A stretch of 27,684 nt of DNA, taken from IMG/VR virus record IMGVR_UViG_3300032309_000926, positions 1 to 27,684 of that record, one strand, 5' to 3'. The notes beneath the pieces were generated by a model. It saw nothing but the letters and a program-made list of their open reading frames with translations. It was not told the DNA's origin and made no database searches. The position numbers were made by a program, and so were the translations under genes. Source of the stretch: a virus. This document shows, one piece after another, positions 7,872 through 20,149 of the stretch. How positions within the stretch are numbered: position 1 is the first letter of the stretch; each line of letters opens with the position of its first letter.

Positions 7872-8736
7872 TCAAGCGGCAGACGCTTTGCGCAAGCGCT
7901 CCAGCTCCAACATCCGCGCCAGCGGCACCATCGCCACCTGAGGCACCACGGCATTGCCCAGGGCCTTCAGCCGGTCCACCCGACCGGATAGCCCATCATC
8001 TCCTCGACGAAGGCCGGGTTGAGATAGAAACGCTCGCCAGTCGGGAGCAAGTCGGGCAACCGCTGAGGGCCATGGCGTTGCGCTTTCTCCCAGTTGGTTG
8101 GGCCCTTCCAATCGTTCGCCGTGGGGGTTAGCAGCCCCACGTTCCCATGGGTCATCCACAGCCAGTCCGTCAGCGTCACCCCGCTGTGGTGCTGGGAACC
8201 TGGCTTGCGTGTCGCTGTCGCGTTGCGGGCCCCCGACCGATCGGTGGTGACGGGCGTAGGCAACAAGCCACCACCTGTCCCGCTGATGGCAGGCACCCAC
8301 AGCCGCTGCCGGTATGCACGCCCCATTCCGCGTCATACCCTGCCTCGGCCAGCGCTCCGAGAACGTCGTCCATCCCTCGGTAAGTGATCGCTGCGACGTT
8401 TTCCAAGACGATGTAACGCGGTCCCACCAGGCGAACGACTCTGAGCAGTTCGTAGAACAGGCCCGATCGGCTGCCAGCCAGGCCGGCACCCTTTCCGGCT
8501 TGGCTGATGTCTTGGCAGGGAAATCCACCGCAAACAATGTCGGCTGAATGTGGCGTGGGGTTGAAGGTGCAGATGTCATCGTGAATGGGAACGGTGGACC
8601 AGTGTTTGGCGAGGATGCGTTGGCAGAACAGCTCGCGCTCCACGAACTGCACGGTTTCAATGCCGCCCAGCCAGCGAGCGGCGAGGCTGAATCCGCCGAT
8701 GCCGCTGAAGGTGTCAATCATGCGGAGGGGCTTCAT
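7872..8736 (-). pseudogene. DNA cytosine-5 methyltransferase, frameshifted
   Basis: The N-terminal half starts at 8736 (MKPLRMIDTFSGIGGFSLAA, motif I). It carries the catalytic GGFPCQDIS (motif IV), LENV (motif VI) and GYDAEWGV, in the frame open to 8176. The C-terminal half (IPAAAVGACHQRDRWWLVA, motif VIII, and RVDRLKALGNAVVPQVA, motifs IX/X) is in another frame that ends at 7872. Skipping one base near 8316 joins them into a normal EWGV-IPAAAVGA sequence of about 288 residues, so a one-base insertion is the likely cause. It could be a real inactivating mutation, a sequencing error or a programmed +1 shift. The intact enzyme would methylate cytosine in phage DNA, probably against host restriction. 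The ATG overlaps the nuclease stop (TGATG). Confidence 0.85.
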
Positions 8737-9419
8737 CAGATAAAACCAGGCTCAGCAGCCCGAGCCCGATAGGTGGCCCAGGCGCCAGCCCACGCCAGCA
8801 GGCACTCAGAGCGGCTGTAGAGGGGGCTGAAGGTGGTCGAGCCAGGACGGCACCAGATGGTCTGCCCTGCGTCGTAGTGATGGCCGTGCGTGGCCTCCAG
8901 CGCCATGTATCCACCCAGCTGTGCTGCGGTGCTGTAGGTGGCACCGTTCTCGCCCAGGCTTTTCAGGTCGGCCAGGATGCGCCGGTGGTCTTCATCGATG
9001 TAGGCAGCGTCATAGGTGCCGGCGACTTTGCGGCGGATGCAGCAGGTAGGGCGTTCGCTGGCAATCACCTGCAGCTGGTGCCAGCGGTCGTGCTCGAGCA
9101 GCGGCTGGATCCAGGTGCTGTGATCACCAACCGCCAGGGCGCCGAGCTCAGCGATGGCATGGCGGATCTGTTCGATGCCCCAGGGTGAGCCGGATGTGGT
9201 GCCGAGCATGAGCTCAAGGGCGCGGTGGCAGTTGTTGCCTCTGGGTTCCCAGGTGGAGCGTGTGGCCATGATCCGCTGCATGGCGTAGTCGGACTTGAGG
9301 CAGCCGATGACGCCGGTGACGCTGATGGGGAACTCCAGCTGGCCTAGCCAGTAGCGGTGTTCAGGATCGCGGCGGTGAAGGCCATCGATCGGCGGGAGCC
9401 AGTGGGTGGGGGTGATCAT
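8736..9419 (-). CDS. PD-(D/E)XK exonuclease, RecB/Cas4-like
   Basis: The 227-residue protein shows the RecB nuclease motif series: RGNNCHRALELM (G-x3-H-x2-LE, His65), VAGTYDAAYI (Asp137), ILADLKSLGE (Asp151-x-Lys153) and AAQLGGYMAL (Gln167 to Tyr171). These bind metal and cut DNA in lambda-exo, RecB and Cas4-type enzymes. In this operon, between primase-helicase and methyltransferase, a role as replication or recombination exonuclease is most likely. There are no Cas4-type Cys clusters, so an iron-sulfur protein is unlikely. The upstream side is the iteron-rich gap. The stop shares one base with the methyltransferase ATG. Confidence 0.8.
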   Translation of the reverse strand: MITPTHWLPPIDGLHRRDPEHRYWLGQLEFPISVTGVIGCLKSDYAMQRIMATRSTWEPRGNNCHRALELMLGTTSGSPWGIEQIRHAIAELGALAVGDHSTWIQPLLEHDRWHQLQVIASERPTCCIRRKVAGTYDAAYIDEDHRRILADLKSLGENGATYSTAAQLGGYMALEATHGHHYDAGQTIWCRPGSTTFSPLYSRSECLLAWAGAWATYRARAAEPGFI

Positions 9420-9449: not shown

Positions 9450-9724
9450 GGCTTTGTTGGCTCAGTGTTGGCAGTCCGACCAACATTCAAAGCAGCTGCG
9501 CTGCAGCGGATCTGAGCCGAATGTTGGTTTGTTGGCTGTGTTGGCTGCTTTTGCGTGTGCGTATCACTGCGCTACAGAAAAAGAAGGGAGAGAAGAAGAA
9601 AGACAAAAAGAACCAACAAACCAACATTCTTCTTTTATTCCTTTCTTTTTCCAGTCGTGGCCTGCGTTTTGGGATGTTGGCTGCCAGCCAACATTGAGCC
9701 AACACAGCCAACAGAGGCCAACAG
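9450..9724. other. Iteron-rich AT-rich region, candidate replication origin
   Basis: This roughly 300-base gap between the exonuclease start and the primase-helicase stop holds about a dozen copies of a TGTTGGCT-type iteron on both strands. Forward copies start at 9455, 9466, 9520 (AATGTTGG), 9530, 9539 and 9675. Reverse copies start at 9480, 9621, 9686, 9697, 9706 and 9716. Neighbouring copies are 9-11 bases apart, about one helical turn. Between the clusters lies an A/T-rich purine tract (about 9578-9612) and a pyrimidine tract (about 9628-9656), forming a large imperfect inverted repeat. Iterons beside a DNA-unwinding-type tract and next to a primase-helicase gene are the classic layout of an origin. 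Short ORFs crossing it look like chance frames. Confidence 0.7.
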
Positions 9725-12346
9725 TCACGGCAGCGGCTCCGTAGCCCGGTAGGCCCAGGCTCCGCGTGCTGTGCGATCAACCGTGCCGAGGTTCATGCCA
9801 GCCAGGGCATCAGCGGCCGCACCGGCGGCTGCGGAGTCGATCTCCTTGCGCTGCTGGCGGCTAAGGCGTTGCGCCACATCGCGCCAAGCAATGGCTTCAC
9901 CGCTTGCTTCAGCCAACCGATGAACAAGGCGCATCAGGTCCGATGCTTCACCAGTGGCGGCAGCTTCATGAATGCCAAGGGTCCAGGCATTGAGCTGATC
10001 AACCAGCTTGATGCCAATGGCAACCGCGTTTGAGCTCACCGGGGTGGAATGCGAGACCTTGGCCTCCCATGCCCAGAGCAGATGCACCAGTGCCGCGACG
10101 CGAAGCACCTTGCCGGGCGCTTTGCCCATCAGGGCGCCCTGCGCCGGGAGTGTGGCGGTTAAGGCCTGGTGCTGGCAGTCGGCCTCGTAATCCATGAACA
10201 TGCGCCGCGCGCCGCCATCCAGCTTGAGGCTGGTACGTGGCAGCCGGTAGACATGACTGCAGGCATCAGCAAGAAGAGCACCGGCGGCTTCGCTGGCGGC
10301 CGCTTCCTGATCGGATTCTTCGTGCGCCAGTTTCACCACCTTTTCTGGCAGCGGGATGAAGAGGTAGCGAGCCCAGAGACCGGAAGCATCACCATCGCGG
10401 ACCAGAGCTTGAAGCACCGCGGGCTGGATGGTGCCCCAGATCGATAGGTGGCAGCGGCTGTAGGAGCGGCCGCCGCCGATGGCGGCAACACGCAGTGATC
10501 GAAACCCTGAACCGTCGTAGGCCTCGAGGAGCTGTTCGGAATCGGAGCCGCGGCCGCTGCGGTACTGGTTGAGGTTGCCGAACAGGCCGGCCAACTCATC
10601 GCGGTGAAGAAGCAGGCCGAGGCCGCGATCCTCTTGTACCTGCAACTGCTGAGCGAGTGCTTCAGCGGTGGCATCACTGATGGAGAGGTAAGCAGCCTTT
10701 GGCGGATCGGGCCGCTCGGATGGCTTCACGCCGCGGTTCTGCTCGGTCCAATCCTCCATGGCGCGGCTGTGTTGCCTGGCGAGGTTGAGGCGTAGCTCCT
10801 CGGTTGGCTTGGAGACCAGCAGCCGACTGAGGGGCGACTTCTTGGCGCCAGAGCGTGCGACGAGTGCGCCGTAGAGGTTGAGCGGAACGCGGTAATCAGC
10901 GGCCTTGCTGGCGATGATCTCGGTGCCGAGCTTGACGACACCTGAGACGCACACGAGGAATGCCATGCAGGCGGCCACGTCATCGGCCGGCAGGTAGTGA
11001 GTGCGGGTCTTGAGTGCTGCGGCCAGAGAAGGCGGCAGAAGTTCATCAATGCTGATCTGCTTGTTGGCGCCGGCGCGCTCAACGGCCCGGGCCAGGCGCT
11101 GGGCCTCCTGCAGCACCTGCAGACCGGAATCGGCTTCACGTTGAATCGCTAGCAGCAGGCCCTGGAGGGTGGCGGCTGGGATGTCGCTGGCGGCTGCCAG
11201 GCGGATGCGTTCGGCCTCGAGGTCTTGGCGTGATGCACCGGCTTCGACGGCATAGCGCAGCCGGTCGCGCACCTCGTCGAGTGTGAGCAGCTGGGTGCGC
11301 TTGGCGGCCTGCTGCTGGCCCTGGTGCTGATCATCGGCCGGCGGCGCCTGCTGGCTCTGGTGGGCGCCGCCTGGGTGCTTTCCCCGCAGATCGTGGCGGC
11401 TGATGTCAATGCCCCATTGATCGCGGAGGTAGGGCCAGACGCTGCCGCGGCTGATCTTGGTTGGCTTGCTGGTGAAATAGGAATCGAGGTCGGTGATGGA
11501 CTGGCAGCAGGTTTCAGCCAGCAACTGCTCAGCATCAGTGGCGCCGACTTCGACATGAAGCCTGATGGCCAAGCCCACCAACTGGTCGTACTGTTTGGCC
11601 CCGTGCTTGAACTGCGGCACCTGCAGCAGGGCCTTTTTCAACGCCTCGGGTGGACGTTCCGGCAGATCGCCAGCATCCCAGAGTGGAATGCCGCTGAAGG
11701 GGTCGTCATCTGCGTTGGCGGCAGGTGGTGCGGGCTGAGTTGTGAGCCATGCCTCCACCTGCTCGACGTCGTAGCGCTTGGCGTTGCTGGCGTGGATCTT
11801 CGACTGACCAGATGCCTTGCCATCCGGGCCGATGTAGAAGGCGCCGGGCAACCGCATCACCCTGCTGGCGTTTTTGTTTACCGGGTCGGCTCCGGTGACA
11901 GCAATCAGCGCCGCTTGAATCGGCTCCCAGCGGCTGCGGCTGATTGGCTCGGCCAGCACCCAGTAGAGGTGCGCCGACTTGCCGCCAGTGGTGACGACGA
12001 TCGACGGTTCACCGAGGCCAAACTCACGCCATGCGGTGAGCTGCCAATCCACGGGCCGATCGTCCCATTCAACCCAGAAGGCGCGGCAGAGGGTGATGGC
12101 GTTGTCGTCGTCGCCGCCGTCGTTGATGACCAGGTAGACACCGCGCCCTTCGCGCTGCCAGCGGCTGGCTGCGTCGAGTTCGTATGAGCCTTTGCGGGCC
12201 TTGATGCCGTTCGGGTTGGTCTTCGCGTGGAAGCGGTTGGGGTTGAGGCGATGGGGGAAGGCACGCAGCCGAGCCGCTGCGGGGTCTTTCCCAAGCAGCG
12301 ACAGGAACTGATCAGCCTGGCCCCGATGAATCGGGGGGATGGTCAC
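9725..12346 (-). CDS. Primase-helicase: RepB/PrimPol-like primase plus DUF3987 ATPase
   Basis: With the GTG start at 12346 the product is 873 residues. The N-terminal part (about 1-210) resembles RepB-like archaeo-eukaryotic primases: AFWVEWDD (acidic motif, 92-96), VVTTGGKSAHLYWVL (124-129) and RVMRLPGAFY. A Gln/Ala-rich linker follows. The C-terminal part (about 430-760) matches DUF3987, with a Walker-A-like VARSGAKKSPLSR (497-504), Walker B LLLHRDELAGLFGNL (Asp583-Glu584) and SIWGTIQPAVLQAL. It would prime and unwind DNA at the nearby iterons. The GTG overlaps the upstream stop as GTGA, which fits the coupling style here; a longer ORF start at 12424 would overlap the upstream gene more. 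No DNA polymerase is seen in the window. Confidence 0.88.
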   Translation of the reverse strand: MTIPPIHRGQADQFLSLLGKDPAAARLRAFPHRLNPNRFHAKTNPNGIKARKGSYELDAASRWQREGRGVYLVINDGGDDDNAITLCRAFWVEWDDRPVDWQLTAWREFGLGEPSIVVTTGGKSAHLYWVLAEPISRSRWEPIQAALIAVTGADPVNKNASRVMRLPGAFYIGPDGKASGQSKIHASNAKRYDVEQVEAWLTTQPAPPAANADDDPFSGIPLWDAGDLPERPPEALKKALLQVPQFKHGAKQYDQLVGLAIRLHVEVGATDAEQLLAETCCQSITDLDSYFTSKPTKISRGSVWPYLRDQWGIDISRHDLRGKHPGGAHQSQQAPPADDQHQGQQQAAKRTQLLTLDEVRDRLRYAVEAGASRQDLEAERIRLAAASDIPAATLQGLLLAIQREADSGLQVLQEAQRLARAVERAGANKQISIDELLPPSLAAALKTRTHYLPADDVAACMAFLVCVSGVVKLGTEIIASKAADYRVPLNLYGALVARSGAKKSPLSRLLVSKPTEELRLNLARQHSRAMEDWTEQNRGVKPSERPDPPKAAYLSISDATAEALAQQLQVQEDRGLGLLLHRDELAGLFGNLNQYRSGRGSDSEQLLEAYDGSGFRSLRVAAIGGGRSYSRCHLSIWGTIQPAVLQALVRDGDASGLWARYLFIPLPEKVVKLAHEESDQEAAASEAAGALLADACSHVYRLPRTSLKLDGGARRMFMDYEADCQHQALTATLPAQGALMGKAPGKVLRVAALVHLLWAWEAKVSHSTPVSSNAVAIGIKLVDQLNAWTLGIHEAAATGEASDLMRLVHRLAEASGEAIAWRDVAQRLSRQQRKEIDSAAAGAAADALAGMNLGTVDRTARGAWAYRATEPLP

Positions 12347-14537: not shown

Positions 14538-14668
14538 GGTGGGAATGCTGTGTTGATCGCCAGGGGGCAGCGCCCGCGCCTGGTGACTCACACAGCATAG
14601 TGCCTAGCAGGCGTTCTGCTTGGAGAAGGCCGTCAAAGCACTACGCTGAATCGAGCGGCTGCGCGCCT

Positions 14669-15946
14669 GTGATCATCGGTTACGCCAGGGTCAGCACTGA
14701 CAAGGCCGAGCAGGACATCAGCATCGCTGAGCAGGTCCAGCAGCTCAAGGCAGCCGGCTGTGATCGCGTCATTGCTGAGCGCCGCAGCGCGCATAAAGAC
14801 GCCAGCAGGCCCGGGTGGGATGAACTGCTCGCCCTGGTGGCTGGCGGCCAGGTGCGCCGCGTGGTGGCTTGTTCGCTATCACGGCTCAGCCGCCGCGGTG
14901 AGGATGTGCCGTTTCTGCGCATGTGCGCGCGTCTGCGCGTCGAGGTGCAGCTGCTGGATGGCACGCCGGCTGATACGGCCGATCCATCGGGGAAGTTGCT
15001 CACCGGCGTGCTGTCGCTGGTGAATGAGATCGACAGCGACATCAAAGCGATCAACATCCGCAACGGCCTTGCGCGCAGGAAGGCGCAGGGCCACTACGCC
15101 TGCGGTCGGGTGCCGTTTGGGTACGCCTACGACGGCAGCCAGGTCGTGATCCACCCTGAGCGGTTTAGGGATGCGCGTCAGCTGTGGGACAGGCTGGCGG
15201 CGCTGGAGTTCAACATGCCGGCAACGATCCGGCGCCATGGGCTGCAGTGGAGCCCTCGAGGCCTTGGCCGCTGGATCAACAACCCGATCTTGCGAGGCGT
15301 TGTCAACAACGAGGCTGGACGCGTGACACCACTGATCAGCTGGGAGGAATGGCAGCAGGCGCGGCGGCTGTTGGATGCACGCCGGGTTGGTGGCACCAGG
15401 GCGCCGCGGGTGTTGCGCGTGTTTTCCGGCATGGTGCGTTGCAGCTTCTGCAGCAAGGCGCTGCATTACGCAATGGCAGCAGGCCGTCCACGCCTGAAAT
15501 GCACGAACCTGCATTGCAGCCACTACGGCCGCGGGTTGGCTGAGTGGAAGGTCAAGCAGCAGGTGATCGAGGAGCTGTGCGCCGCGGCCGCGGCCATGGG
15601 TGATGCCGTTGCTGCTGCTGCAAGCCAGCCGGCGCAGGAAGTACCGGAGCAGGTGGAGAAGCGGCAGCAGCTGGCGCAGCTGGAGGCGCTCAATGCGCAG
15701 GGCGTGCCGGGCCTGGTGCCAACTATCGATGCCATGCGGCTTGAGCTGCTGGCACCACCGCCGATCGCCTCAGCGAACTGGGCTGATTTCCGAATGGCTT
15801 TGCAGCGGCCGGACATCATGGCCGGGGCCACTGACGAAGAACTCAGGGCAGTGCTGCTTGAGCTGTGCTCTGAGCTTCTCTATGTCGGCAATTCCAACAG
15901 GATCGAAGTCCGGCTGCGCGACCGCCCGAGCAACAATCCGAAGTAG
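14669..15946 (+). CDS. Large serine recombinase (phage integrase type)
   Basis: From the GTG at 14669 the product is 425 residues. The resolvase domain has VIIGYARVSTDKAEQ with catalytic Ser9, the Arg-rich CSLSRLSRRGED motif and NEIDSDIKAINIRNGLARRK (the long helix). A recombinase domain follows (GRVPFGYAYDG, then PRGLGRWINNPILRGVV), and a zinc ribbon (VRCSFCSKALHY and LKCTNLHCSHYG). The C-terminal part is Ala/Gln-rich and helical, the place of the coiled coil that controls direction in large serine integrases. It would integrate and, with a partner factor, excise the phage. A longer frame starts at GTG 14600, but the conserved domain begins at VIIGYA. No attachment site core could be identified from the window alone. 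Confidence 0.88.
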   Translation: MIIGYARVSTDKAEQDISIAEQVQQLKAAGCDRVIAERRSAHKDASRPGWDELLALVAGGQVRRVVACSLSRLSRRGEDVPFLRMCARLRVEVQLLDGTPADTADPSGKLLTGVLSLVNEIDSDIKAINIRNGLARRKAQGHYACGRVPFGYAYDGSQVVIHPERFRDARQLWDRLAALEFNMPATIRRHGLQWSPRGLGRWINNPILRGVVNNEAGRVTPLISWEEWQQARRLLDARRVGGTRAPRVLRVFSGMVRCSFCSKALHYAMAAGRPRLKCTNLHCSHYGRGLAEWKVKQQVIEELCAAAAAMGDAVAAAASQPAQEVPEQVEKRQQLAQLEALNAQGVPGLVPTIDAMRLELLAPPPIASANWADFRMALQRPDIMAGATDEELRAVLLELCSELLYVGNSNRIEVRLRDRPSNNPK

Positions 15947-19000: not shown

Positions 19001-20149
19001 ATGAGCTCTGCAGGTCTGGGCTGGTGGCTGGAGACGATTGGTCGGTATCCGCTGCTCAGCCCAGCGCAGGAGATCGAGCTTGGCACTGCTATCCAGGCAT
19101 GGTTGAACCATCCGGGATTCCCGGATCGTTGCCCGCCAGGCATCCGCCGCTGCGGTGAGCGTGCCAAGCGTCGATTCATCGAAGCCAACCTGCGCCTGGC
19201 GGTGAGCTATGTCTCGAAGCACTGCAACAGGTTGGCCAAGGGCCACAGCCACGATGATCTGATCCAGGCCGCCAACCTGGGTCTGATCACGGCAGTCGAG
19301 CGGTACGACCCAGCGCGTGGCTACCGCTTCTCCACCTACGCCTACTGGTGGATTCGGCAGTCGGTCACGAACTGGGCAGATCGGCACGGCCGCACCGTGT
19401 CCATCCCTGCGATCCATTCGCAACACCTCGGCCGGCTTGATGCCATCCGCCGCCGGCTGCTGCTTGAGCTCGGCCGCGAGCCATCACGCCAGGAGCTGTC
19501 CGAAGCGCTTGGTGTATCGGATCGCGTGCTCGAGCAGCTGCTGGTGAACATGCAGCCGATCGGCAGCCTGGATCGCGTCATCGCTGATGACGGCGGCATG
19601 GAGCTGGGCGATCTGATCGCCACCCATGACACCACGCTCGAGGATCAGGAAGAACAGGAGCAGCGGCGGCAGCAGGCGCAGCAGCTGCAGCAGTTGATCA
19701 GCCGGCTGCCAAGGCGTGAGCAGCGCCTGGTGCGTCAGGCGTATGGCCTCGATGGTGTGCAGCGCAGCCGTAAGGAGGTCGCCACGGCAGCGGGCATCAG
19801 CACACGCAAGCTGGATGTCATTCTGCAGGCGGTGGAGCAGCAGCTGCAGCAGATGGCTGTGCAGCTGGAGTTGATCACATGGCCGGTGTCCGCACCGCCA
19901 CCACGGGTGAAGGTGAAGCGCAGGCCGCGGTTGCTGGTGATCACAGATCAGCTGAGTTTCTGGCCAGCAGTTCCCGCGCCATTTCCATGTACTGCTCACT
20001 TGGACCAGGTAGCGACGGTTCAGCCTTTGCCAGCAGCAGTTCCACCTCGAGGCAGGCCACACGCCGCAGCGCCTGGTTCAGCAGATGCTGCTGCGTGTAC
20101 CACTGCACAATCAGCCGATCGGATTGCTGCTGCAGCTCCTGCAGCTTGA
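19001..20149 (+). CDS. RNA polymerase sigma-70 factor, group-2-like
   Basis: Residues 8-30 resemble region 1.2 (WWLETIGRYPLLSPAQEIEL). Residues 57-127 are region 2 (RRFIEANLRLAVSYVSKHCN, DDLIQAANLGLITAVERYDP, RFSTYAYWWIRQSVTNWA), with the aromatic -10 melting residues present. Residues 135-210 resemble region 3. Residues 230-285 are a region-4-like HTH (LPRREQRLVRQAYGLDG, RKEVATAAGISTRKLDVILQ). The order and wording are close to cyanobacterial group-2 sigma factors. It would redirect host polymerase to phage promoters. The last 70 or so residues are Pro/Ala-rich, unlike sigma factors, and lie opposite the minus-strand gene 19941-20225. Confidence 0.9.
   Translation: MSSAGLGWWLETIGRYPLLSPAQEIELGTAIQAWLNHPGFPDRCPPGIRRCGERAKRRFIEANLRLAVSYVSKHCNRLAKGHSHDDLIQAANLGLITAVERYDPARGYRFSTYAYWWIRQSVTNWADRHGRTVSIPAIHSQHLGRLDAIRRRLLLELGREPSRQELSEALGVSDRVLEQLLVNMQPIGSLDRVIADDGGMELGDLIATHDTTLEDQEEQEQRRQQAQQLQQLISRLPRREQRLVRQAYGLDGVQRSRKEVATAAGISTRKLDVILQAVEQQLQQMAVQLELITWPVSAPPPRVKVKRRPRLLVITDQLSFWPAVPAPFPCTAHLDQVATVQPLPAAVPPRGRPHAAAPGSADAAACTTAQSADRIAAAAPAA

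Follow-up and report, generated by a model that had tools for sequence, protein, structure and literature searches.

The array of TGTTGG repeats that lies 3' of the primase-helicase gene in the window (the whole stretch of DNA analysed, a linear IMG/VR virus record of 27,684 bases) is very probably where copying of the phage DNA starts, and its repeats, or iterons, are probably read by the C-terminal domain of the primase-helicase. Taken together, the sequence comparisons make it highly likely that a cyanophage replicates bidirectionally from this region, an iteron origin that a self-loading primase-helicase binds through its C-terminal domain. This reading follows from the position and layout of the array and from the co-variation of repeat and helicase half, which over about 90 related loci are as expected for an origin read by the primase-helicase. 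The original prediction of an iteron-containing origin is supported over those loci, and of the two candidates that it offered for binding the iterons, the primase-helicase or a partner, the former is now favoured, since the repeat varies together with the helicase/C-terminal half of that protein. The window is assigned to a cyanophage because its TerL is 76% identical to that of the Synechococcus siphoviruses S-CBS3 and S-CBS1, and because an 85% identical homologue of the primase-helicase is present in a Synechococcaceae MAG contig (L005).

Exact copies of TGTTGG, six forward and seven reverse, fill positions 9455-9723; nine of them continue as TGTTGGC and seven as TGTTGGCT. The most clustered 6-mer per 275 nt in 40 Markov-shuffled genomes reached 5-7 copies versus the 13 observed, and clustering far above chance is confirmed. 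The array occupies the gap between the stop codon of the primase-helicase (9725) and the next gene, which is exonuclease-like (9419..8736), and it is the only TGTTGG cluster in the window, a 27.7-kb fragment that is possibly incomplete. About twelve copies, mostly forward on the left and mostly reverse on the right and adjoining the primase-helicase gene, had been noted, and this description proved accurate: 13 exact copies lie in 9450-9724, five of six iterons in block 9455-9544 are forward and six of seven in block 9613-9723 are reverse, and only 1-2 nt separate the final iteron from the stop codon. Within clusters the start-to-start distance is 8-14 nt, and the order read along the primase gene is >>>><>> then <<<><<. 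In each block 2-4 outer repeats are followed, 11-15 nt away, by one inverted repeat, and beyond a gap come 2-3 inner repeats; the two blocks are arranged approximately as mirror images (Table 1). The array region gave no match to a promoter or terminator, and none in Rfam at the gathering score.

Table 1. Features of the putative origin and its flanking genes, in window coordinates
Feature	Position	Strand	Description
Primase-helicase, 899 aa	9725..12424	-	AEP PrimPol-like N-terminus ~30-223; DUF3987 helicase-like domain 486-809; C-terminal domain
C-terminal domain, residues ~828-899	9728..9943	-	Predicted three helices and two-strand wing; proposed iteron-binding domain
Left-half iterons (primase direction)	9613..9723	-	Minus-strand TGTTGG at 9613, 9621, 9688, 9699, 9708, 9718; one inverted at 9675-9680 (+)
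A/T-rich left gap	9627..9660	.	CT-tract in window; TATATATA-type A/T sequence in relatives
Central spacer between inner iterons	9546..9612	.	Holds purine tract 9577-9609
Conserved palindromic element	9496..9513	+	Window copy CTGCGCTGCAGCGGATCT, 3 mismatches to TTGCGCTGGAANGGATCT
Right-half iterons (primase direction)	9455..9544	+	TGTTGG at 9455, 9466, 9522, 9530, 9539; one inverted at 9480-9485 (-)
Exonuclease-like gene (phrog_298)	8736..9419	-	Next gene, same strand as primase-helicase; outside origin

The same arrangement recurs among relatives. With the aligned helicase as query, 13 IMG/VR loci were recovered, and in the non-redundant sample used for comparing DUF3987 helicases the CCAACA/TGTTGG group comprises L005, L160 and L162-L170, with L171 left out. 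All eleven of these phages carry a related DUF3987 helicase and possess the same hexamer array in the same spot with a near-identical layout (>>>< >> <<< > <<). Ten of them hold 12-14 repeats, one-base variants counted, in nearly the same order and at nearly equal distances from the stop codon; the array of L160 is degenerate, with 8 repeats. The iteron positions of the window's right half are conserved in L005 and L162-L170, and alignment of L005 through the array reveals hexamers that are retained and DNA between them that has diverged. A 57% identical relative, L171, follows the same plan with CCTACG instead of CCAACA; only one iteron switch was seen within the window's helicase family. The exonuclease-like neighbour is not kept beside the array in relatives, where the downstream gene varies and the upstream primase-helicase is constant. 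Named phages yielded no significant close DNA relatives of the array, and a comparable array was not found in the tested gaps beside the replication genes of S-CBS1 and S-CBS3. A gap after the PrimPol gene of cyanophage S-2L that looked repeat-rich was not above chance.

Natural rearrangements of the replication gene indicate which part of the protein the repeat accompanies. By Pfam assignment and alignment, the primase module at the N-terminus, which in the window matches the S-2L PrimPol and phrog_36873, is freely exchanged. The CCAACA repeat is common to three N-termini joined to the DUF3987 helicase and C-terminus, namely PrimPol (window, L005), a Zn_Ribbon_Prim/TOPRIM type (L105) and another (L154), and CGTTAC is likewise common to L131 (PrimPol) and to L129 and L153 (Zn_Ribbon_Prim), all with an L131-type helicase that differs from that of the window. 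In L004, a PrimPol is combined with a RepA-like ATPase/helicase, and the repeat is GCGGGAA. Because the repeat is constant through these swaps of primase module, it follows the helicase/C-terminal half, and origin specificity would thus be set by the helicase half of the fused primase-helicase. AlphaFold2 consistently models the last 72 residues of this half as H-H-H-E-E (pLDDT ~74-89; the model of the helicase core is poor), an arrangement compatible with a winged helix. A Foldseek/PDB search with the C-terminal model, which is of medium confidence, returned weak matches and no significant fold, with ArsR/Fur/MarR-type regulators among the first rows and none of them at E<0.5; P4 alpha was not matched among the fold-search hits listed.

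A finer correspondence emerges from the L131-type helicases, a family whose homology to the window's helicase is not detectable, and of which 80 loci were collected and 78 were suitable for analysis. In almost every case the most frequent word behind the gene is a CGTNAC/G/T variant, mostly in 4-15 copies; in a few weak arrays the top word is close to the shuffle level. On a tree of the helicase part of the 78 loci, about 20 changes of iteron word are counted, compared with an expectation of about 50 under label shuffling. Where the predicted wing begins (RF, HF, YF, WF), all 51 loci with C at iteron position 6 have Arg, and all 27 with G or T at that position have a residue other than Arg (His/Tyr/Trp), such that Arg/non-Arg agrees with C/non-C in 78 of 78 loci and over 5 independent switches on the tree (Fisher p = 2.9e-6 with one representative per 75%-identity cluster, n=24). 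This column was spotted by eye first and then ranked top in a scan of all low-gap alignment columns, in which the iteron word was limited to CG-starting hexamers, a choice guided by the arrays seen. The natural reading is that the Arg would touch the guanine opposite the position-6 C.

In addition to the iterons, many of the arrays share a palindrome, TTGCGCTGGAANGGATCT, with the ideal form GAGATCCCTT-GCGCTGS-AAGGGATCTC. The window's copy (9496-9513) sits within an imperfect inverted repeat of about 50 nt (9479-9528; z -2.7). An exact scan of the viral collection with the 17-nt form found 29 contigs, about a dozen of which have a copy inside an iteron array close 3' of a primase-helicase gene (overlapping the gene end in L135), and the palindrome-bearing arrays use differing iterons: CCAACA, CGTTAC, CGTAAC, TGGACA and GCGGGAA. 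Allowing up to 3 mismatches, the palindrome lies within 600 nt of the gene end in 44 of 91 related loci, a count of gene ends that includes near-duplicates, versus 0 in control stretches inside the gene. It is placed in one gap of the array, sometimes in both. Pair counting gave no covariation beyond shuffles; we therefore claim only an inverted repeat, a hairpin being possible. As candidates, the element may be a second recognition site, either a priming hairpin or a host-factor site. A role as a host chromosomal site was considered and set aside, the 7 scattered matches in one host-like MAG (2 mismatches), one of them the phage contig L005, being nothing telling. The close relatives L165, L169 and L170 differ in the orientation of the 7-nt centre (GCGCTGG or CCAGCGC), while the arms around it are almost the same, as in L165 versus L169, which points to template switching, cruciform events or a symmetric binding site.

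The original prediction had placed a purine/pyrimidine inverted repeat at the centre of the array, and this feature is real in the window yet is not conserved in relatives. The GA-tract and CT-tract (9578-9600 / 9627-9649) are complementary at 18 of 23 positions, compared with a maximum of 17 in 200 shuffles. The purine tract 9577-9609, a pyrimidine tract on the primase strand, is kept as such in relatives; close relatives retain this pyrimidine run and have TATATATA-type A/T sequence in place of the CT-tract on the opposite side, and in L005 the partner region is replaced by TATATATATATG. Judged from these alignments, the inverted repeat appears to be no essential part of the origin, and the A/T-rich left gap (9627..9660) is a possible melting region. 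The A+T-richest 30-nt stretch (22/30 in the window, 22-26/30 in relatives) is located inside or beside an iteron set, not exactly midway between the two mirror-like sets.

GC skew, one of the checks proposed for the origin, gave a divided answer, with a cumulative minimum in the window near 5 kb, away from the array, but a step at the locus itself in 36 aligned relatives. The window minimum is weak evidence, because the window is a 27.7 kb linear fragment in which genes up to 12.4 kb lie nearly all on one strand. The 36 relatives are non-redundant and have co-oriented genes to either side of the array; the fourfold-site skew of those genes rises from -0.285 upstream to -0.100 downstream, and a rise is found in 27 of the 36 (Wilcoxon p=1.9e-5). 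Since divergent replication predicts such a rise, the step agrees with it; early versus late gene effects may contribute.

The proposed mechanism begins with binding of the iterons by the winged-helix-like C-terminal domain of the primase-helicase, upon which one ring would assemble per array half. The A/T-rich gap would then melt and the rings would load and travel away from each other, with the fused primase starting synthesis on the exposed strands.

Other explanations were also weighed. It is unlikely that the array is an origin at which a separate initiator, from phage or host, binds the iterons in place of the primase-helicase. The iterons of RSF1010 are served by a separate RepC (PMC4234260), and the window encodes several small proteins without a known family that might act in this way; however, a change of iteron type goes along with a change in the C-terminus of the primase-helicase, with an exact residue-base match over 5 switches, and a separate host protein would not track such changes. 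The same co-variation with the helicase C-terminus speaks against an operator cluster, in which a phage regulator would bind TGTTGG and control the promoter of the downstream exonuclease gene. Repeated inverted sites are typical of operators, and the array does lie directly upstream of a co-oriented gene, but it is the downstream gene that varies among relatives and the upstream primase-helicase that is constant, the region lacks a promoter match, and 10-13 position-fixed copies across 270 nt are unusual for an operator, all of which makes this explanation very unlikely.

Iteron-like arrays also serve packaging, partition or incompatibility roles in plasmids, and a site of this kind is the most improbable of the explanations weighed here. 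The array stays beside the primase-helicase and follows the helicase type, the gpA-type terminase gene (terminase gpA domains are encoded in the window) is about 5 kb distant, and no partition gene was recognised.

An origin read by the primase-helicase has close parallels in known systems. In SaPI/PICI elements the ori lies immediately 3' of rep, with an A/T-rich region between two sets of iterons (PMC6092414), and the initiator's C-terminal domain reads the iterons (PMC7581432). The window shares with them an array immediately 3' of the putative initiator gene, where it ends at the stop codon, also in relatives, two iteron sets with a candidate melting region, and a self-loading helicase whose C-terminal domain is here the predicted reader and whose primase is sometimes fused. 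Those elements are satellites, whereas the window and its relatives are tailed phages that encode a terminase and portal themselves, with DUF3987, L131-type or RepA-like helicases, and with an extra conserved palindrome. In the PLE RepA-ori system, covariation of the initiator's DNA-binding domain with the iterons was proven functional by swaps (PMC8263062). P4 alpha is a fused primase-helicase whose C-terminal winged helix binds origin iterons (described in PMC4234260), and the window shares the fusion, with the winged helix and its iteron binding predicted; P4 differs in possessing a TOPRIM primase, where the window has an AEP type and relatives L105, L129 and L153 carry Zn_Ribbon_Prim, and in having ori plus crr, where the possibly incomplete window shows a single array. 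The origin of pRN1 lies 3' of orf904, whose product joins an AEP PrimPol, a helicase and a DNA-binding domain at the C-terminus (PMC4234260). This organization, with the origin directly 3' of the gene, is shared by orf904, phage BIP-1 type and the window, but pRN1 uses a 100-nt stem-loop without iterons, whereas in the window iterons dominate and the palindrome is short. Finally, the oriV of RSF1010 (IncQ) has iterons and, close to the origin, the short inverted repeats ssiA/ssiB (PMC4234260), a combination also seen in the window, yet it depends on three separate proteins and ssi priming sites, compared with one fused protein and a palindrome without covariation support.

Our literature search found no paper mapping such origins in cyanobacterial siphoviruses, and nothing beyond the precedents cited. 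If function is confirmed, ordinary tailed phages too would follow the PICI/SaPI origin plan, which has been described as found in those satellites alone. It is about an even call whether these loci form a modular class of phage origin with two layers, a constant palindrome read by some factor, perhaps of the host, and exchangeable iterons that the C-terminal wing of the primase-helicase recognises by a simple residue-to-base rule (Arg for C, His/Tyr/Trp for not-C), such that a PICI-type plan has spread across tailed phages of cyanobacteria and Pseudomonas. A precise candidate origin is supplied here, and some 90 natural variants are material for learning the initiator's DNA-reading rule.

Arrays resembling that of the window were also seen elsewhere. 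TGTTGGG iteron arrays lie 3' of a DUF5906-type bifunctional primase in Pseudomonas phage Lodos (L157) and in L083, L104, L124, L158 and L159. The first six repeat distances in Pseudomonas phages such as Lodos are 15, 24, 35, 54, 100 and 109, versus 15, 24, 35, 48, 102 and 110 in the cyanophages. Common descent of their C-termini and that of the window found no support, the two showing no detectable profile similarity, and selection accounts in part for the shared hexamer, because these phages were found through the CCAACA pattern. CCAACA arrays of mixed orientation are present in contigs of about 40-44% GC (L056:4418-4716, L061:2000-2286 and L091:1858-2144), that of L056 lying about 200 nt behind a DnaG/CHC2-type primase gene (1319 aa).

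Other features of the window and of L005 bear on gene structure and lifestyle. The primase-helicase of the Synechococcaceae MAG contig, otherwise 85% identical, contains a frameshift (L005:5060-5107) that may reflect either an assembly error or a decayed prophage. A C5 cytosine methyltransferase gene of the window (7872-8736, minus strand) is broken across two reading frames, with the N-terminal half at 8176-8736 and the C-terminal half at 7872-8717, as a result of either a phage frameshift or a sequencing error. The window also encodes a large, integrase-like serine recombinase (14600-15946, plus strand) and a sigma-70 factor (19001-20149, plus strand), which together suggest a temperate phage that carries a transcription factor of its own.
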